A DNA stretch of 64,000 nucleotides from Luteibacter flocculans (GTDB taxonomy: Bacteria > Pseudomonadota > Gammaproteobacteria > Xanthomonadales > Rhodanobacteraceae): assembly GCF_023612255.1 (NCBI RefSeq), contig NZ_CP063231.1, positions 4,086,501 through 4,150,500 on the forward strand. The letters run 5' to 3'. Below are positions 16,713 to 28,945 of this stretch, in pieces. The notes under the pieces are model-generated. The model searched no databases. It saw only the letters and a program-made list of their open reading frames with translations, and had not been told where the DNA came from. The first letter of the stretch is position 1. The number at the start of each line of letters is the position of its first letter. The translations under genes were made by a program, and so were the position numbers.

Positions 16713-19700
16713 ATGTCGCCAGTGCTAAATCGAGCCGCGCAGCGCGTGGACGTGCGTTCGCGTTCACCATGGCGGAGCGTCTGCAGCTTCATCCTTGTTC
16801 TCTGGGCTGTACTGACGTCTATTTCCGCAACGGCACAGGATCACCTGGTGTGCCCCGGGAATCAGATAAAGATCTATGGCTGGGGTGGCGCTCTATGGGC
16901 AGCGGCAAGTCCGGGATGTCCAGGCGGAGGGGTTTTCGTGTATCCCTCCATGGGCGTATGGGAGACAACCGTGCGGTCCACATGCCTCGCATCTGAGGGA
17001 GCGGCAAACCTCGTGTGGGGAGCTGTCCGTCCCTGCTCCGATCCCGCAGTAGGGGGGTGCGGTGTAGGCACTAAAGGCTTCGCCATGGAGCTATCGTTTG
17101 ACCATCCCATGGGATATCACGCAGACGTCCTTGAGGGGGCGCAGGTGCTTCCTCAGTGCAAGCGCGGATACTACGTGGCGGTACCACTAGCCGACCCCAA
17201 CCCGAAACCTGGCAACCCTTGCGACCGCTGCCAAGCGGAGAAAGGGGCTTCGGCATCGGTCGGCGATCCAGCAGATGCGCTCTCCGGAAACGAATATCAA
17301 GCAAGTACGGACTTCGTTTCTGGCGACGGCCGCTTCTCATTCGAGCGCAGCTACAACAACGGCTCAAACCAGACCACAAGCATAGGCATTCGATGGCAGA
17401 CCGAATATGACGCCCGAATAGAGACCACCTGGAACAGTAGCGACTCGGCCGCATACGCCTCCACCGTCTATGACGCTCCCCAACAGGCTTGCGAAGAGGG
17501 TTGGTTAACAATTGCCGCAGCGGCGAAGGTTGTCTGGCCCGATACAGACGGCGCAACGGCGACCTATCATAGCGATACCACTGCATGCATGCTCTCGTCC
17601 GGCCGGCAGCTCCCCCTTGCCTTCACGGGTAACAGTGCGGACTACGTTGCGCTCGCTAGCAAGGTACCGAACTACATCGGCGGTTATGGGGCAGCGACCG
17701 TTGCCTTGATGACCGCTCGCCGCCCCGACGGTCGACTTTATCGGTTCACTTGTCAGGATGCCGTCTGCGAAGGCGAAAGCAATGCTTCGTTGAAGCTGAT
17801 TCTGCTCGCGACCGCCTATCGGCTGGATCTCGGGAACGGTACTGTCGAGAACTACGACAACGCCGGTCACCTGATCAGCATCGTCGATCGTGACGGATAT
17901 ACGCGGACGATTACATGGGACGGCGAGCACATGGTCAATGTGACCGATTCGTCTGGCCGGTCTATTGCGTTCACCTATAACAATGACCTCGTTTCGGATG
18001 CCGCCTTCCCAGATGGCTCGTCTGCCCATTACACCTATACGAACCGCTACGAACTTCAGTCTGTAACCCGATCGGATGGAACAACCGTTACCTATGGATA
18101 CGACGCAGGTATTACCGCTGGCCTGCTCACGTCCATCACGGACGAACTCGGTAAGTCCTACTTGACGATTCACTACGACGCACAAAATCGCGCAGCGGGC
18201 GACTTTCTCGCCGGTAATGCAAACGCGACATCGATCACCTACCCCGATGCCGACAGCTCGGCCGTAACCGATCGGTTTGGAGCGACGCGCACCTATCGAT
18301 TCACGAGGGTTAATGGCCTTCGTCTCTTATCCAGCATTGATGGTCCGTGGTGCGAGGAGTGTCTCGGATCGAACGTGTCTTATGATGCGAATGGCTATCC
18401 AAGCGCCATCACGGATTTCAAGGGAACCATCAAGAAGACCACCTATGGATCAGATGGACTTCTCAGTCAGCAGATTGAAGCATTCGGTTTGCCAGAAGAA
18501 CGCACCATCCGGATATCGTGGGACACCACCCACCGGGTGCCTCTGACTCGCACGACAAGTGACCATCAGGGCAACATCCTCGAAAAGCACGGCTGGGAAT
18601 ATGACGACGGCGGCAGGGTCACCGCCAGCTGCAAGCTCGATCCCTCGGTAGCGCCCAACTACGTTTGCACCGCCACGGGCGCAACGCCGGCCGGCGTAGC
18701 GCGAACAACCTATACGTACTGCACTGCTGCCGACCAGACTACGTGCCCCAGGGTTGGCCTTCTACTCGCGATCGACGGTCCGCGATCCGACGTTGCAGAC
18801 ACGACTTCGTACATTTATTACATGGACACTGATGAGTCGGGCTGCACGACAAGTGGAGGGTCATGCCATCGCATAGGCGACCTCGCTTCGGAAACACAGG
18901 GCGGTCTGCTCACGACCCATTATCTGTCTTACGACAAGGCGGGGAGACTAACTCGACTGAGAGAACCATCGGGTGTCATCAAGGACTACGGATACAATGC
19001 ACGTGGCCAACTCGCAAGCGTCTCGGTGCGCACTGCAACGAGTGGTCAAGCCAATGCAAACGATGCGGTCACCACTGTCGAATACGACCCCACCGGTACC
19101 GTCCACAAGATAACGGACCCCGACGGCGTAACGACGATCTTCAGCTACGACGACGCCCACCGCCTGACAGACGTAGTGGATACGACTGGCGCCCGAATCC
19201 ACTACACCCTGGATTCCGCGGGAAACCGCATCGGCGAGAAGGTCACTGACAGCGCAGGTACTGTGGCGACCGGGCTGAACCGCACGTTCAACGCCTTGGG
19301 CAAGATCGCCACATTGACGGACGGCCTCGGGCATACGCGATTCTCGGCAACGTTTGCCGATAGCTACGACGGTCAAGGCAATCTTGTACACAGTCAGGAT
19401 GCAATGTCCGTTCAGCACAAGCAGGCGTACGACGGCCTCAATCGTTTGGTAAGCGCGCTTCGCGATTACAACGGAACCAACGTCGCAACCGCCAATACCT
19501 CGACGGTGCTCGCGTTCGATGCGCTCGATCGGGTGAGGGGCGTCACTGATCCTGATGGCTTGCTGACGACCTACGACTTCGACGGCCTTGGCAATCCGAC
19601 CGGCTTGCACAGCCCTGATACGGGCACGACGACGCTCGGCTTCGATTTAGAGGGCAATCCGACCAGTTCAAAAGATGCCGCCAATATCACCACGTCCTCA

Positions 19701-21380
19701 ACTTACGATGCCATTGGCCGCATCCTGGGCACTTCGTATCCAAATTCGTCGTTCGACATTCAGTACAAGTACGACGAAAGCGATGCCGTTACAGCTTGCA
19801 CGGGCAGCTATGGCATCGGGCGGCTGACTCGCATTATCGAGAGCAATGCGTCGCTCACGTATTGCTATGACCAACGAGGCAATGTCGTCACGAAACGCCA
19901 GACTGTCGGCTCGGCGACAACCACAACGCAGTATGTATGGACTCGCGGCGACCGTCTGTCTTCCGTCACAACGTCTAACGGGACCATCATAGCCTACGCT
20001 CGGAACAGCAACGGGCAGGTCGCTGCCGTCACTGCCACACCCAGCGGCGGCACCAATGCAACCATTGCCGACCACATCACCTATCGCCCGTTCGGTCCCG
20101 TCGCCTCTTACGTCCTCGGTAACGGCACGGCGGTGACACGGACATTCGACGCCAACGGTCAGATAAGCGACATCAGCAGCCCCGCGTTCTCATTGCACGT
20201 CCGGCGCGATGCAGCGGGGAACATCGTAGCCATTGGCAACGCGGCTGGCGTGGCGAAGCCCACCGAGACCTACGATTACGACCCGCTGTACCGTCTGATG
20301 AACGTCAAGGATGGTACCGGCGGCCCAATTGAAACCTACACCTACAACAAGACTGGCGACCGTCTATCGAAGGCAGCGCCCGGGCTTCTCACAGGAAGCT
20401 ATAGCTACAAGAGCGGTACGCATCAACTTATAGGCATTGGGACCACGACGCGTGAGGTGGACGCTCGAGGCGACACCACGGCCAACGTCATGGCCGGCAG
20501 CACACTCGGATTCGGTTACAACCAGCGGAACCGTCTGACCGTCGTGCAGAGAGATGGCGTCACGGTGGGAAGCTATGTCTTGAACGGCTTAGGCCAGCGC
20601 GTCATGAAGACCGCAGGAGGCGACACGTACCGCTTTGACTACACCGAGACCAGCCAATTGCTTTCCGAGTCAACCACTGGCACGTCGCGCGACTATGTGT
20701 GGCTCGGCGACCTGCCGATCGGTGTCGTTGATAGGCAAGGCACTACTGTGTCCGTGGCGTACATCGTTGCGGACGCCTTGCAAACGCCTCGCACAGTTAC
20801 CGATGCGGCAGGCTCTACGCTTTGGAAGTGGGACTATGCGAGCAATCCGTTCGGCGAGAAGGGACCTATTTCGACAAGCGGGTATACGCTGAATCTTCGC
20901 TTTCCGGGTCAGTATTTCGATGCGGAGAGTGGACTGAACTACAACGTCAATCGGGACTATGAGTCGGCGACGGGGCGGTATATGCAGAGTGACCCATTGG
21001 GGCTCTACGCCGGCCCTAGCACGTACACATATGTCAGCGACAATCCACTATTACGAAGCGATCCCCTTGGGCTAGCTGACTACTTGGGAAAGTGCGTGGG
21101 CCGATACACTGTGTGCAGTTCGAACCAAACCCCGAATGGCTTTACGCCATGGAACTATGTGAAATTCCGCTTTTGCAAAGGCGTGGTAGACATGGGGATT
21201 ACTACCGGCGACAAAATGTCATCACCCGCGCGCCCCGTCGGCACGATGGATGCCTGTGACACAGAGAGGAAGCTATGTCTCGGAAGCCTCGATACGGAAG
21301 ACCCCTCGGATAACCCCGACGCGGCAAAGTGCTTCGCCGATGAAATAAAGTGTTACTCAAAAAGCGGGAAAGCCAAATGA
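16713..21380 (+). CDS. Secreted Rhs/YD-repeat protein with cysteine-rich C-terminal domain
   Basis: 1555 aa. A signal peptide or anchor (VCSFILVLWAVLTSISATAQ, ending near residue 43) replaces the PAAR domain of type VI Rhs effectors. A DUF6531-like entry follows (GDPADALSGNEYQASTDF), then YD repeats through most of the protein. The Rhs-core end motif is intact (YNVNRDYESATGRYMQSDP, then LRSDPLGL). The last 101 residues (from about base 21075) form a separate tail with seven cysteines that I do not recognise. In polymorphic toxins this position holds the toxin. An AGGGGAA site precedes the ATG. The stop overlaps the next gene as ATGA. Confidence 0.88.
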   Translation: MSPVLNRAAQRVDVRSRSPWRSVCSFILVLWAVLTSISATAQDHLVCPGNQIKIYGWGGALWAAASPGCPGGGVFVYPSMGVWETTVRSTCLASEGAANLVWGAVRPCSDPAVGGCGVGTKGFAMELSFDHPMGYHADVLEGAQVLPQCKRGYYVAVPLADPNPKPGNPCDRCQAEKGASASVGDPADALSGNEYQASTDFVSGDGRFSFERSYNNGSNQTTSIGIRWQTEYDARIETTWNSSDSAAYASTVYDAPQQACEEGWLTIAAAAKVVWPDTDGATATYHSDTTACMLSSGRQLPLAFTGNSADYVALASKVPNYIGGYGAATVALMTARRPDGRLYRFTCQDAVCEGESNASLKLILLATAYRLDLGNGTVENYDNAGHLISIVDRDGYTRTITWDGEHMVNVTDSSGRSIAFTYNNDLVSDAAFPDGSSAHYTYTNRYELQSVTRSDGTTVTYGYDAGITAGLLTSITDELGKSYLTIHYDAQNRAAGDFLAGNANATSITYPDADSSAVTDRFGATRTYRFTRVNGLRLLSSIDGPWCEECLGSNVSYDANGYPSAITDFKGTIKKTTYGSDGLLSQQIEAFGLPEERTIRISWDTTHRVPLTRTTSDHQGNILEKHGWEYDDGGRVTASCKLDPSVAPNYVCTATGATPAGVARTTYTYCTAADQTTCPRVGLLLAIDGPRSDVADTTSYIYYMDTDESGCTTSGGSCHRIGDLASETQGGLLTTHYLSYDKAGRLTRLREPSGVIKDYGYNARGQLASVSVRTATSGQANANDAVTTVEYDPTGTVHKITDPDGVTTIFSYDDAHRLTDVVDTTGARIHYTLDSAGNRIGEKVTDSAGTVATGLNRTFNALGKIATLTDGLGHTRFSATFADSYDGQGNLVHSQDAMSVQHKQAYDGLNRLVSALRDYNGTNVATANTSTVLAFDALDRVRGVTDPDGLLTTYDFDGLGNPTGLHSPDTGTTTLGFDLEGNPTSSKDAANITTSSTYDAIGRILGTSYPNSSFDIQYKYDESDAVTACTGSYGIGRLTRIIESNASLTYCYDQRGNVVTKRQTVGSATTTTQYVWTRGDRLSSVTTSNGTIIAYARNSNGQVAAVTATPSGGTNATIADHITYRPFGPVASYVLGNGTAVTRTFDANGQISDISSPAFSLHVRRDAAGNIVAIGNAAGVAKPTETYDYDPLYRLMNVKDGTGGPIETYTYNKTGDRLSKAAPGLLTGSYSYKSGTHQLIGIGTTTREVDARGDTTANVMAGSTLGFGYNQRNRLTVVQRDGVTVGSYVLNGLGQRVMKTAGGDTYRFDYTETSQLLSESTTGTSRDYVWLGDLPIGVVDRQGTTVSVAYIVADALQTPRTVTDAAGSTLWKWDYASNPFGEKGPISTSGYTLNLRFPGQYFDAESGLNYNVNRDYESATGRYMQSDPLGLYAGPSTYTYVSDNPLLRSDPLGLADYLGKCVGRYTVCSSNQTPNGFTPWNYVKFRFCKGVVDMGITTGDKMSSPARPVGTMDACDTERKLCLGSLDTEDPSDNPDAAKCFADEIKCYSKSGKAK

Positions 21381-21871
21381 AGCTATTTCTGATGAGCATT
21401 GGAAGCTTCATCGTTGGAGCGGCTGTAATGGCTTATATGGCTCAGTATACGAGCCAAATGTATGGTCGCGATCAGATTATTCGCGCGCGCGAAGGCATCG
21501 TCCAACTTGTGATCGATAAGTACCGTGCAGGTGACTACGAGAGCGCAGCTGCTCTCGCGACTGGCGTGAATCTTCTCGAAACCTATAGCAACCGGGAGTG
21601 GCCTTTGCTTTCGCCCGTGACAGGAACGGTTTACGGCCTTTCTCGACCCACAGAACACTTAGGCCATGATCCGCGGTACTTCGTGGATCTTGTGGCCTAT
21701 TTGTACAGTGCCTCGGGGCATGAAGAAGCCGCCAGACCCTACTATAGGCTTGCAATTGGAAATGGATCGTTGAAGAAGGAGCAGGTCGATGCGCGCGCTA
21801 AAGCAATTCTTGATGCCATTAGTGGAAGCAATACAGATGAGTTGAAAGACAAGCTGAGATCTGACGACTGA
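21377..21871 (+). CDS. Membrane-anchored partner of the Rhs protein (candidate immunity protein)
   Basis: 164 aa from ATG 21377, overlapping the Rhs stop by 4 bp, so the two are translationally coupled. An N-terminal membrane helix (LFLMSIGSFIVGAAVMAYMAQ) is followed by a helical soluble part rich in Ala, Tyr and Arg that could form TPR-like pairs (YRAGDYESAAALATG, YLYSASGHEEAARPYYRLAI). The coding is less GC-rich than the neighbours, as is the Rhs tail. Position immediately after an Rhs C-terminus suggests immunity; the sequence itself matches no family I know. Confidence 0.7.
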   Translation: MKLFLMSIGSFIVGAAVMAYMAQYTSQMYGRDQIIRAREGIVQLVIDKYRAGDYESAAALATGVNLLETYSNREWPLLSPVTGTVYGLSRPTEHLGHDPRYFVDLVAYLYSASGHEEAARPYYRLAIGNGSLKKEQVDARAKAILDAISGSNTDELKDKLRSDD

Positions 21872-24972: not shown

Positions 24973-25512
24973 TCATCCGCGTGTTCGCGGCTTGCTCTTC
25001 CGGCGCTTGCCGATGCTGGCGGACGTGGGGGCGCCGGCGTCGATGGATGCCGCCTTGCGGTCTGCCAGGCCTTCCAGCCACGACAGATCATCGAGATAGG
25101 AAAGGAAATGGCGCAGGTAGCCGGGGGACGTGTCGCGCATCAGCGCAATCGAGCGATGAACGAGCGCACTCGAGTTCAGCGGTCCTGCGTTCTCCGCGGT
25201 GTGTTCGAGCGAATGACGCCATTGGCTCTCGGCGCGCAACTGTGACCATCGTGCCTGGAATTCATCGAGTGCGGGCAACATGGGATACGCCGTATTGCCT
25301 GGCAACCCGGCAAGTAGATCGCCAAGCGCACTGTGCGACGATTGATCCGTCGTTGCGACATCGTCCACACGCGCATCTGCAACGTGCGATTGCCTGAGCG
25401 CACGCAAGCGCTCGTCGAGCACGCGCCGCACTTCACCGTCATGCATCACGGCGCGCCGTTCCAGCGCCTCGATGAGATGCAGGTGCAGCAGGGATGCGGC
25501 CTTACGATCCAT
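24973..25512 (-). CDS. DUF2894-type protein of the ZorAB-like cluster
   Basis: 179 aa from ATG 25512, which overlaps the OmpA-domain gene by 11 bp. The protein is helical and soluble, with a conserved-looking centre (ALDEFQARWSQLRAESQWRHSLE, then GPLNSSALVHRSIALMRDTSPGYLRHFLSYLDDLSWLE) and a basic tail KRRKSKPRTRG. I recall this as DUF2894, a family found beside DUF802 and DUF3348 genes. Function is unknown. As the last gene of the cluster it could be the component that acts on what the motor-like pair senses. Confidence 0.75.
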   Translation of the reverse strand: MDRKAASLLHLHLIEALERRAVMHDGEVRRVLDERLRALRQSHVADARVDDVATTDQSSHSALGDLLAGLPGNTAYPMLPALDEFQARWSQLRAESQWRHSLEHTAENAGPLNSSALVHRSIALMRDTSPGYLRHFLSYLDDLSWLEGLADRKAASIDAGAPTSASIGKRRKSKPRTRG

Positions 25513-26152
25513 GCGGCGGTTTGGTCGACTTGGGCGGTCGCGGAATCGGCGCAATCTCCACGCGACGATTCATCGCGCGACCTTCCTCGCTCGCGTTGGA
25601 ACCGACGGGTTGCTCCGCACCGAAAGCGGCTGCAAAGACCGACGAAGCCGGCACGCCTTCCGCTACCAGCGCGCGCGTCACCGTCAAGGCGCGTTCGGCC
25701 GACAGTTCCCAGTTATCCGTGAAATGACGATTACCGTCGTGTACCTGGCGGTCGTCGGTGAAGCCGCTGACCATCAGGATCTCGTCGCGCGACTTCAGAT
25801 ACTCGGACAGCGGGCCAGCGATGCTTTTCAGGACGTCTTGTCCTTCCGGCTGCAGCTGATCGGAGTTCAGCGCAAAAAGCACACTGCCGCGTATGCCGAT
25901 GCGGCCATCCACCAACGTCACCCGCCCCGCAGCAAGCGGCGCCGCGAGCGCCTGTTCCAGCGTGGTACGACGCCTTTGTTCGGCCTGACGCTGGCGCACC
26001 TCCTCGTCGAGCCGATGCGATAGCTGCAACTGCACGCCGATCACGCCCACGAGAATGAGCACGAAAGCGCCGAGCAGCACCGACATCAGATCGCCGAACG
26101 CCGCCCAGATCGGTACGCCGGCTTCGCCTTCGAGTTCCAGCTCGTCGCTCAT
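25502..26152 (-). CDS. MotB/ZorB-like protein with OmpA peptidoglycan-binding domain
   Basis: 216 aa. A single N-terminal helix carries an acidic residue (FGDLMSVLLGAFVLILV, Asp21) at the place of the proton-binding Asp of MotB and ZorB. The C-terminal OmpA domain (from about residue 90) has the peptidoglycan-binding signature NWELSAERALTV and ends AMNRRVEI. The ATG overlaps the stop of the 700-aa partner gene as ATGA. The pair therefore has the plan of an ion-driven stator: channel subunit plus cell-wall anchor. Confidence 0.85.
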   Translation of the reverse strand: MSDELELEGEAGVPIWAAFGDLMSVLLGAFVLILVGVIGVQLQLSHRLDEEVRQRQAEQRRRTTLEQALAAPLAAGRVTLVDGRIGIRGSVLFALNSDQLQPEGQDVLKSIAGPLSEYLKSRDEILMVSGFTDDRQVHDGNRHFTDNWELSAERALTVTRALVAEGVPASSVFAAAFGAEQPVGSNASEEGRAMNRRVEIAPIPRPPKSTKPPHGS

Positions 26153-28251
26153 GCCGACGTCGCTCCGCCAGCGAGGCGCTGCATGTCTTCGATGATCTGC
26201 TTCTGCGACAACACGCTGAGATCGACCACTTCGCGCGCCTGTGCCACGTAGTACGCCAACTGTTCGTCACTGCGAACGAGCGAGGCGTCGAGCGCACCCG
26301 CGATGCGGTCGAGGCGCTCCATCAAGGCCTCATTGGACTGCCCGAACGCCGTCACCGCCGTGCCGAAGGCCTCACCGAGGCTTGCCACTTCCACCGCGCT
26401 TCCGGTGAGCTGGGCCGCCACGGCTTCGAGCTTGCCGGTCTCCGCTTCCACGTGATCGGTGAAGCGGCTGCCCACGCGGTCGAGCAGATCCGCAGACGTC
26501 GCCACGAGAGCATCCACTGCCGTGCGCTGTTCGGTCGATGCGTGATTGACCGCATCCAGCAGCGTCTCGAGCGTGGCGAGCAGGCGGCTGCGCTCTTCGA
26601 GCATCGCCGTGTCACGAAGCATGCTGTCCGACAATTTCTCGCGCAGTTCGGCCACCACTTCCGCGGCAATACGCGGCGCTTCCGTGGCCGCCTCTACTAG
26701 CCGCGAGACCTCGGTGATGGTGTGGCTGGCCTGCGCCTGCGTGCGCTCCGACAGCTCGCGCGTCGTGGTTGCCAGCGCATCGCCGAGTTCGAGCTGGCGC
26801 TGCGCGAACTGATCGCTCGTCTGCGTCCAGCGCGCGCTCAAGGCGTCGGCCATCGAAGAAAGCGCGTCGGTCCATGCCGCGAGACGTTCGCGATCGCGCG
26901 ACTCCAGCGTCGCCTGGACGTCGTTCTGCGACTGTCGCACGGCGTCCAGCATCGACGTCGTACCGTTCTGCAACACAAGCCCCGCGTCGGCGAGCGCGTC
27001 CTTCCACTGGCTGGCTGCCGCTGCCGAAGCGGTCTGGAACGCGCCGGCCAGCCCATCGACTTGCCGCTGCACGGCCTGCGTCATGCTTTCGTGCAGCGAT
27101 GTCGTCTCGCGAGCGAGCGACGCCATCGTCGCTTCCACCGTCGTCGATGCCGCCTGGAATGCACCCGAGAGACCATCCATCTGCCGCTGAGCAGCTTGCG
27201 TCACACTGTCGTGCAGCGCTGCGGTCTCACGCGAGAGCGACGCCATCGTCGTTTCCACCGTCGACGACGCCGCCTGGAATGCACCCGAAAGACCATCGAT
27301 CTGCCGCTGAACGGCGTGCGTCACACTGTCGTGCAACGCTGCCGTCTCGCGAGAGAGCGCGGCCATCGTCGCTTCCACGATCGGCTGCGTCGCGCTGGCC
27401 GAAGCGGTCACGCCTTCGGCAATGCTTTCCTTCAGCGAGCGCTCCACCGACGACGCCAACTGCTGATAGAGGGCCTCGGTGCGCGCATGGAAGGCTTCCT
27501 GGCTGGCGAGTTGGCGCTCGGCGGCGGCGATGCTCTGCCGCTCGATCGTCGCCATGGTCGCTTCCAGTCGTTCGACCAGCGTGGGCATCACGGCGGACTG
27601 CTGCTGCAATAGCCGGAAGGCTTCTTCCCGCTGATGCGCTTGCGAATAGGGCCGCAGCAGAGTGGCGATCGCCACGTCCAGGCGCTGCACTGCCAGCAGG
27701 CGTTCGCGCCGGCACAGTGCCGAGAGCAGACCGAGCATGGCCGAGGTCGCTACACCGGCAATGGAGGTGCCGAACGCGAAGCCGAGGCCTTTCACCGGCT
27801 CGGCCAACGATCCGCGGATGGCCTGCAGATCCGTCGCGCTTTCCAGCGCCATGCCGGTACCGCGCAAGGTCGCCATCATGCCGAGCAGCGTACCGAGCAT
27901 GCCGAGCAGCACGAGCAGACCGACGAGATACGGCGTCAGCGCCGGCGTGGGCAACGCAGCGCGCGCACCCTCGATGCGCAGCCGCACGGCATTGCGCAGG
28001 CTCGGATGGAGGTTCGCCAGCCATGTACCCAGATCGGAGGGTGCGCTATCTAGCCCCGCAACGGCCTCGCTCAGGCTCGCGGTCGCCTGACGGTAGCGAT
28101 GCAGTTCCAGCGCACCGACGAGGTAACACGCACCGATCGCGGCGGCGACGGCAGCACCCAGCGGATTGGACGCGAGATAGCCCCAGCCGACCCAGACGAC
28201 GACGGCCAGGCCCACGAGAAAGACGATGAAATAGAGCGACTGTCTGAACAT
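26149..28251 (-). CDS. DUF802 protein: MotA/ZorA-like channel with long coiled-coil tail
   Basis: 700 aa from ATG 28251; an in-frame start at 28401 would overlap the upstream gene by 140 bp and adds a basic stretch, so it is rejected. Two N-terminal helices (LYFIVFLVGLAVVVWVGWG; AAVAAAIGACYLVGAL) and two more near residues 103-170 (LVGLLVLLGMLGTLLGMMATL; LGFAFGTSIAGVATSAMLGLL) form a MotA/TolQ/ExbB-type core. About 500 residues of coiled coil follow, including three 40-residue repeats at residues 288-407. A short channel followed by a long cytoplasmic tail is the ZorA plan. The gene starts 10 bp after the DUF3348 gene. Confidence 0.85.
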   Translation of the reverse strand: MFRQSLYFIVFLVGLAVVVWVGWGYLASNPLGAAVAAAIGACYLVGALELHRYRQATASLSEAVAGLDSAPSDLGTWLANLHPSLRNAVRLRIEGARAALPTPALTPYLVGLLVLLGMLGTLLGMMATLRGTGMALESATDLQAIRGSLAEPVKGLGFAFGTSIAGVATSAMLGLLSALCRRERLLAVQRLDVAIATLLRPYSQAHQREEAFRLLQQQSAVMPTLVERLEATMATIERQSIAAAERQLASQEAFHARTEALYQQLASSVERSLKESIAEGVTASASATQPIVEATMAALSRETAALHDSVTHAVQRQIDGLSGAFQAASSTVETTMASLSRETAALHDSVTQAAQRQMDGLSGAFQAASTTVEATMASLARETTSLHESMTQAVQRQVDGLAGAFQTASAAAASQWKDALADAGLVLQNGTTSMLDAVRQSQNDVQATLESRDRERLAAWTDALSSMADALSARWTQTSDQFAQRQLELGDALATTTRELSERTQAQASHTITEVSRLVEAATEAPRIAAEVVAELREKLSDSMLRDTAMLEERSRLLATLETLLDAVNHASTEQRTAVDALVATSADLLDRVGSRFTDHVEAETGKLEAVAAQLTGSAVEVASLGEAFGTAVTAFGQSNEALMERLDRIAGALDASLVRSDEQLAYYVAQAREVVDLSVLSQKQIIEDMQRLAGGATSA
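27031..27390 (-). repeat. Three tandem 120-bp units in the coiled-coil tail
   Basis: Units at 27031-27150, 27151-27270 and 27271-27390 each encode 40 residues, with cores SRETAALHDSVT..QRQ.DGLSGAFQAA. The copies at 27151 and 27271 are nearly identical over long stretches; the one at 27031 is more diverged. Reading frame is kept throughout, so copy number could vary without breaking the protein. Confidence 0.85.
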
Positions 28252-28261
28252 GATGTCTCGA

Positions 28262-28945
28262 TTAGCGGGTGCGAAGCGCGGCAAGCAGCGCCTCCACCGG
28301 TTGAAGGCGAACGTCCAGCTCGGCGAGCAGCACGTGGCGCATGTCCTGGCGAAAACGGTCCAGCCACGCGCCCGGTGCGGTCTCGCCATCGGCGTCGGCA
28401 CCGCGACGCAGGCGGTCGAAATGGTCGGCCATCACTGTGGGCACCTGGCCCAGCAAGCGATGTTCGCGTGGGCTCAGCGCCATCTCCATCACGGCATCCA
28501 CCTCGGCCAGCCGCGCCATCTCCGGCGAGCGCTGCGCCAGCATGTCGCGCAGCCGGCCGCGCAACTGGCCGGTGTGCGCCTGAATCGAACGCTGGATGGC
28601 GAGGTGGCGCTGGCGGAAAGGCGCGTAATCCGGCGTGGAGGCGGTCATCGTCGCCGGACCCGGCGTGGCGAGTTCACGGGCTCCCTCGATCGACCGGACC
28701 AGGCTGGCGCGGACCTGCGCGCACTCCGCTTCCACGTCGGCGTCGAAGGCGGGGGCCTCTGCATCGGGTGCCTGGGTCTGCCCATCGAGCGCCGTGGACA
28801 GGGCAATGGCGTGCGTCCAATCGAGCCAGCGACTCAGACGATCCGGCAGGGAGGCGCCCGGCGCGTCGGTCTCGACGGCCGTGAGTCGGGCCAGCAGGCG
28901 AATGAACGTCGGGCCGCGCAGGGCCGCCCGTGGGACTGAATGCAC
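28262..28945 (-). CDS. DUF3348-type protein, first gene of the ZorAB-like cluster
   Basis: 227 aa, soluble and mostly helical. The N-terminus (GPTFIRLLARLTAVE, then LPDRLSRWLDWTHAIALSTAL) and the middle (DYAPFRQRHLAIQRSIQAHTGQLRGRLRDML) match my memory of DUF3348, a family found next to DUF802 genes. No enzyme motif is visible. It is the promoter-proximal gene of four with 10-bp or overlapping junctions; the 156 bp upstream contain nothing else recognisable. Confidence 0.75.
   Translation of the reverse strand: MHSVPRAALRGPTFIRLLARLTAVETDAPGASLPDRLSRWLDWTHAIALSTALDGQTQAPDAEAPAFDADVEAECAQVRASLVRSIEGARELATPGPATMTASTPDYAPFRQRHLAIQRSIQAHTGQLRGRLRDMLAQRSPEMARLAEVDAVMEMALSPREHRLLGQVPTVMADHFDRLRRGADADGETAPGAWLDRFRQDMRHVLLAELDVRLQPVEALLAALRTR

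Follow-up and report, generated by a model that had tools for sequence, protein, structure and literature searches.

The four closely packed genes at positions 24973 to 28945 on the minus strand of a 64,000-nucleotide stretch of the Luteibacter flocculans genome (assembly GCF_023612255.1, contig NZ_CP063231.1, positions 4,086,501 to 4,150,500; hereafter the window) form, as we judge from their sequences with something close to certainty, a complete and intact Zorya type III operon, an anti-phage system that has already been described. A check of open reading frames (ORFs) finds the cluster where a model's reading of the letters alone (the first-pass annotation) had placed it. Taking this identity jointly with a general mechanism in which the encoded proteins would sense a disturbance and relay it, we put the probability of the combined claim at about 0.85.

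All four proteins strongly match the type III models of PADLOC-DB 2.0.0 (ZorG3, ZorA3, ZorB3 and ZorF3), and the ZorA3 and ZorB3 scores of the window's ZorA and ZorB lie far above those of other Zorya types. Zorya type III was named by Payne et al. 2021 (PMC8565338), who counted 6,401 such clusters. When the Zorya III of Stenotrophomonas nitritireducens was placed in E. coli, plating of at least one tested phage was reduced and liquid cultures were protected at low phage dose (PMC8565338). The first-pass annotation had seen a stator core of the ZorAB type in which two DUF partners stand where ZorC/D/E would be, the four genes staying together as a unit, and it had named the partners as DUF3348 and DUF2894. 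All of this is borne out, the two families being PF11828 and PF11445 (Table 1). Its statement that no function had been described for this set does not hold, since the exact set was both named and tested against phages in 2021 (PMC8565338). Note that the two DUF proteins carry conflicting names: DUF3348 is ZorF and DUF2894 is ZorG in PMC8565338, and PADLOC-DB 2.0.0 (models PDLC00652-PDLC00658) reverses them, with DUF2894 as ZorF3 and DUF3348 as ZorG3. The same paper writes of a core pair 'zorBC' in one place, which we take for a slip, and of ZorA, ZorB, ZorF and ZorG in its discussion. Type III is mentioned by Mariano et al. 2025 (PMC11890865), whose experiments, in the text available, concern types I and II; our literature search on Zorya III found no experimental mechanism for type III in the text examined.

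Structural matches point the same way. A profile of 25 ZorB sequences finds two chains in the PDB over residues 9-202, a span that includes the membrane helix: the type I ZorB 8vvn_B (E 2e-6) and 8qyd_F (E 3.2e-6), the latter carrying only the molecule name 'Membrane protein', which we take to be a Zorya chain as well. With a profile of 21 ZorA N-termini, 8vvn_C is the sole sequence below E 0.01 (E 3e-5); the PDB search with a single ZorA sequence returned no matches. PDB entry 8VVN is Zorya I and 8vvn_C its ZorA (PMC11890865). As judged from these profile matches, the motor proteins of the window, ZorA and ZorB, are related to their type I namesakes. Neither ZorC and ZorD of type I nor the HNH nickase ZorE of type II finds a match in the four proteins (PADLOC, E 0.001) or in seven neighbours in the window (E 1e-8).

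The first-pass annotation had staked its reading on the four genes being kept together, and they are. Order and direction of all four are identical in 27 of 27 loci obtained from a search for relatives, and 75 of 80 further loci match all four genes, the contig ending before DUF3348 in the remaining five. The 75 include one locus in which only the last 26 residues of DUF3348 precede the contig edge (L122). Note that the 80 loci are the best 80 of at least 554 relatives in a scan of genome contigs, and that the sets have at least four loci in common, which come from the same genomes and were kept in both. The 4-bp overlap of ZorA with ZorB is found in 77 of the 80 loci, and DUF3348 and ZorA are separated by 10 bp in 59 of 75, with start codons in this set picked by a heuristic. 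Across 299 Pseudomonadota genomes, DUF3348 is over the cut-off in 12 and DUF2894 in 13, both in the same 12; the thirteenth DUF2894 match barely reaches the cut-off and contains a stop, and each of the two families has one further match below the cut-off in another genome. A fifth conserved gene was considered and rejected. Families in the flanks vary, the commonest being found in 11 of 27 loci, as called by a crude picker based on ORFs and GC content at third codon positions. The same picker overlooked DUF3348, ZorB and DUF2894 in three of the 27 loci each. One contig, JAHREJ010000010.1 (L071), is titled Bacillus subtilis and carries a full four-gene cassette whose ZorB is 81% identical to that of the window; the assembly is probably mislabelled or contaminated.

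Within the window's cassette, the stop of zorA and the start of zorB share an ATGA, the 4-bp overlap that the first-pass annotation had reported, and the ATG of zorA at 28251 lies ten bases past the DUF3348 stop. A 750-residue ZorA, from an ORF with a GTG start reaching 28401, was rejected: it overlaps DUF3348, and it is an over-extension because the PADLOC ZorA3 profile begins at ORF residue 51. By hydropathy, ZorA has four membrane stretches (after merging of two predictions that overlap) and ZorB has one, while the DUF proteins lack any. Past residue ~200, the tail of ZorA spans ~500 residues, and Asp21 of ZorB sits within FGDLM. The architecture is the one anticipated from the letters, with a four-helix channel and its tail of ~500 residues next to a one-helix protein with Asp21 and an OmpA domain. 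At E 0.001 ZorA is without any Pfam family match. The C-terminus of DUF2894 is basic, with 9 K/R against 2 D/E among the last 30 residues. Coordinates are collected in Table 1.

Table 1. Features of the Zorya type III operon, with positions counted from the first letter of the window.
Feature	Position	Strand	Basis
Four-gene cluster, transcribed in the order DUF3348, ZorA, ZorB, DUF2894	24973-28945	-	ORF check
DUF3348 gene, first of operon, GTG start, 227 residues	28262..28945	-	Pfam PF11828 E 7.3e-77; PADLOC ZorG3 E 9.3e-85
zorA type III, 700 residues from ATG; four membrane stretches and ~500-residue rod	26149..28251	-	PADLOC ZorA3 1066.6 bits, E 0; hydropathy
zorB type III, 216 residues; one membrane helix, Asp21, periplasmic OmpA-like domain	25502..26152	-	PADLOC ZorB3 E 5e-114; OmpA E 1.9e-18
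DUF2894 gene, last of operon, 179 residues from ATG (193 from TTG at 25554)	24973..25512	-	Pfam PF11445 E 3.7e-36; PADLOC ZorF3 E 3.1e-51
Rod of ZorA, three consecutive repeat units of 40 residues each (residues about 292-411)	27019..27378	-	Identity over 40 residues of 88% (lag 40) and 70% (lag 80); limits by eye
ZorB Asp21 codon, channel aspartate	26090..26092	-	Asp in 107/107 aligned ZorB rows
ZorB Phe131 codon, probably where types I/II have their peptidoglycan-binding His	25760..25762	-	HTD/FTD motif inference

Elsewhere in the window, an RHS-repeat protein of 1555 residues with DUF6531 (Pfam) lies at 16713-21380 on the plus strand, and a small ORF of 173 residues, without a Pfam family, overlaps its ORF at 21350-21871 on the same strand; together they resemble an RHS element accompanied by what may be a partner gene. 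An Rfam search of the window gave no matches.

Turning to individual residues, Asp21 is invariant across the 107 ZorB rows, 103 of which are distinct, and the ZorA ring residues T121, T162, S163 and S170 are each kept in 103 of 103 sequences. The first-pass annotation had called this aspartate proton-type. That is not established: the equivalent Asp of type I ZorB binds Na+ (PMC11890865), and a conclusion of proton coupling from Asp21 alone was rejected. Both wall binding and defence depend, in types I and II, on a His within the OmpA-like domain (PMC11890865). Judged by motif, the likely counterparts of type I T187, D188, L199, R203, R254 and R259 are T132, D133, L150, R154, R192 and R197, and Phe131 would stand at the place of H186; spacing agrees with type I within the H-T-D, L-R and R-R motifs, not between motifs. 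Position 131 is Phe in 106 of the 107 rows and Tyr in one, T132 is kept in 105, and D133, L150, R154, R192 and R197 are each kept in all 107. The MotB structure 3khn also has Phe at this place, so type III ZorB may bind the wall all the same.

The rod of ZorA varies in length, with ZorA ranging from 625 to 1229 residues in the set. Tandem repeats (at least 50% identity over 40 residues) are present in 43 of 103 ZorA sequences, these being the 80-locus set minus four under 640 residues, plus the 27, with some genomes represented twice. The shortest repeat lengths (11, 29, 40, 51, 62, 84, 87, 98, 102 and 131 residues) fall near whole helical turns at 3.64 residues per turn, with a mean deviation of 0.04 turn, and none of 20,000 random length sets (lengths drawn from 20 to 139) fits as well at its own best value. 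An independent measure, the hydrophobic stripe of the 103 tails, peaks at 3.63. Note that several repeat lengths differ by 11 and are not fully independent, and that in-phase duplications are the only ones that a long helical bundle of whatever kind would be likely to accept. From these patterns we infer that the rod repeatedly lengthens and shortens without losing helix register, as would be expected of a part that transmits movement. In the longest ZorA, from Achromobacter pestifer (L131, 1229 residues), 40 residues match exactly when the sequence is compared with itself at a repeat distance of 131.

How widely is the cassette carried, and how has it been inherited? A search with DUF3348 places it in 20 of 23 Luteibacter genomes; beyond the genus, it turns up in 4 of 14 genomes from the same family and in 3 of 24 from elsewhere in the order. 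The Luteibacter genomes without DUF3348 are G007, which is 80% complete, and G015 and G020, both at 99-100% completeness. For hsdR, the sole contrast family, 1 of the 23 Luteibacter genomes is over the cut-off and 5 of 23 have a match at E 0.001. Near-core presence of Zorya III is not a new idea, because it has already been reported as a highly conserved system in Ralstonia solanacearum (PMC13064858).

The tree of the cassette and a species tree built from rpoB and gyrB have 8 of 24 splits in common, including {G002,G004,G022}, {G005,G018}, {G006,G009,G019}, {G016,G017} and {G001,G003,G008,G010,G013}. Considering only well-supported species splits, 8 of 15 are shared by the cassette tree, all of them shallow or the order-level group, and 7 are missed; supported conflicts between the trees occur inside {G001,G003,G008,G010,G013}. 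The rpoB+gyrB topology is rejected by the cassette data (log-likelihood 594 lower; approximately unbiased test, p-AU 1.7e-60). Tests of single clades reject neither the genus clade (p 0.391) nor {G014,G016,G017} (p 0.145). Distances in the cassette correlate with those in rpoB at 0.776 across 27 genomes (0.567 inside the genus) and with those in gyrB at 0.730 (0.399), against a benchmark between rpoB and gyrB of 0.927 (0.657). Mostly vertical inheritance, considered as an account of the cassette, was rejected given the few shared splits and the rejected species topology. On the same evidence, close relatives share cassette lineages and deeper groups do not. The history of the cassette is not simply vertical, and exchange, recombination inside the cassette or alignment error in the two fast-evolving DUFs may be the sources of the conflict.

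Its surroundings differ as well, the flanking genes varying between subclades. Domains encoded in the flanks are mostly metabolic, transport and regulatory (among the 25 of 111 families listed). At E 1e-8, the flanks of 10 of the 27 loci match 11 PADLOC families in 104 ORFs, and control regions half a contig away (8 of 10 regions used) match 21 families in 104 of 138 ORFs; both counts are of families, not proteins, and many of the families are generic. The flanks contain one strong match to MzaA and one to SoFic. None of the seven neighbours in the window has a PADLOC match (E 1e-8). Clustering in defence islands, which the first-pass annotation had raised, was not seen around these 10 loci. 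A pattern scan of viral contigs found no relative, and among 50,697 phage records three have partial OmpA matches, none over 80% of ZorB. On plasmids, ZorB is found in 27 of 72,556 records at E 1e-30, the smallest being 366 kb and seven being rated mobilizable. The carriers are six genera, which we take to belong to the order Burkholderiales, and Azoarcus. The setting typical of a mobile defence island, among defence genes and on mobile elements, is not the one seen here, though the cassette does occur on some plasmids and its tree departs from the species tree.

What might such an operon do? Motor, rod and wall binding are all needed in types I and II (PMC11890865). By analogy with those types, a phage would perturb the envelope and ZorB would touch the cell wall; ions would flow past Asp21, the ZorA ring would turn or twist, and the rod would carry the movement into the cytoplasm. 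A further step would be peculiar to type III: both DUF proteins, which would be cytosolic, might attach to the rod and either effect the response or pass it on. Because no nuclease domain is recognised in either DUF protein, our guess is that the response is either an unrecognised DNA-acting fold (the tail of DUF2894 is basic) or a loss of fitness caused by the open motor as such.

Several observations weigh against a Zorya III operon that works in this manner. In the PDB search, many MotB and OmpA chains rank above those of ZorB, for the most part through matches to the OmpA half (among the 60 of 65 matches listed). In the control genomes DUF2894 is over the cut-off in 1 of 14 (Corynebacterium glutamicum) and DUF3348 in 0 of 14, which argues against strict pairing; the C. 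glutamicum match could be spurious or a stray relative. The His that binds the wall in types I and II appears, from the motif comparison, to be replaced by Phe or Tyr in type III. A single copy in 20 of 23 Luteibacter genomes, together with metabolic flanks, is atypical of a mobile defence system. For the Luteibacter copy, protection against phages is a prediction drawn from the S. nitritireducens relative. Finally, types I and II are modelled as requiring a partner that acts on DNA at the point of phage entry, and this partner is without a recognisable counterpart in the window's set. In Pfam at E 0.001 each DUF protein matches only its own DUF family, and profile searches of the PDB found relatives of neither (alignments of 47 and 46 rows; best E 0.44 and 0.43).

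One alternative is that a nuclease effector is hidden in DUF3348 or DUF2894, in which case type III would work exactly like types I and II. The basic tail of DUF2894 would be in keeping with this, but neither Pfam nor PADLOC gives a nuclease family at E 0.001, profile searches of the PDB found no relative, and no familiar nuclease motif was seen by eye in either DUF alignment. We regard a hidden nuclease as possible but rather unlikely.

Imagine instead that the cassette encoded a housekeeping envelope stator, used in maintenance or stress surveillance, and that the protection conferred from a plasmid were a side effect of over-expressing the motor. We would then have a ready account of its single copy in the genus (20 of 23 genomes, against 1 of 23 over the cut-off for hsdR), of metabolic flanks with no excess of PADLOC families over control regions, and of its high conservation in R. 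solanacearum (PMC13064858). However, the rejected species topology and the 8 of 24 shared splits point to exchange of the cassette, unlike a plain housekeeping gene, and its sparse presence (4 of 14 and 3 of 24 genomes elsewhere in the family and the order, 12 of 299 in the phylum) shows it to be dispensable. Its flanks also differ among subclades, a relative protects against phage (PMC8565338), and in one Burkholderia study infection by phage altered the expression of the first one or two genes of a Zorya III operon (PMC12584637). A housekeeping role is, on this evidence, quite improbable. That the pair is a stator of the flagellar MotAB or Tol/Exb kind, not related to Zorya and flanked by its two neighbours by chance, is very hard to believe: the OmpA-like half of ZorB does match MotB/OmpA structures better than ZorB matches ZorB structures, but ZorA and full-length ZorB match Zorya I chains, the PADLOC ZorA3/ZorB3 scores far exceed those of other Zorya types, the DUF neighbours hold their position (27/27; 75/80 loci), and ZorA has a long rod tail.

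We thus retain the Zorya III operon with a sensing-and-relay mechanism. The locus is not a discovery, and what we add is modest: in-phase repeats of the rod, a probable change from His to Phe (prior publication of these two points being judged from a limited literature search), close pairing of the two DUFs, and a near-universal yet exchanged presence in the genus. A picture that joins these additions, in which Zorya III of Luteibacter and its relatives would be a near-universal, exchanged envelope motor (and not a cassette met now and then in islands) with a rod tunable by whole turns, possibly a different contact to the wall, and signalling through two DUF proteins to an effector step that departs from the recruitment of a nuclease in types I and II, is one that we think unlikely to be right as a whole. 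The cassette nonetheless offers a well-defined case in which to ask how type III responds without a recognisable DNA-cutting part, and its fixed composition, the probable His swap and the in-phase rod repeats are three handles on how movement of the motor becomes a response.

Compared with Zorya type III as described (PMC8565338), the window has the same four genes in one operon and no difference in gene content; its copy has its own 40-residue rod repeats. With Zorya types I and II (PMC11890865) it has in common the ZorAB core, the channel Asp, the OmpA-like wall domain and the long ZorA rod, whereas it has two DUF proteins and no match to ZorC, ZorD or ZorE, and its ZorB probably carries Phe/Tyr in place of the required wall-binding His. 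With the flagellar stators MotAB and PomAB it shares a four-helix ring subunit and a one-helix subunit with the Asp and an OmpA-like domain. In contrast to those stators, the window's cassette alone has the rod tail and the DUF partners, and the one PDB relative of its ZorA below E 0.01 is Zorya I rather than MotA.
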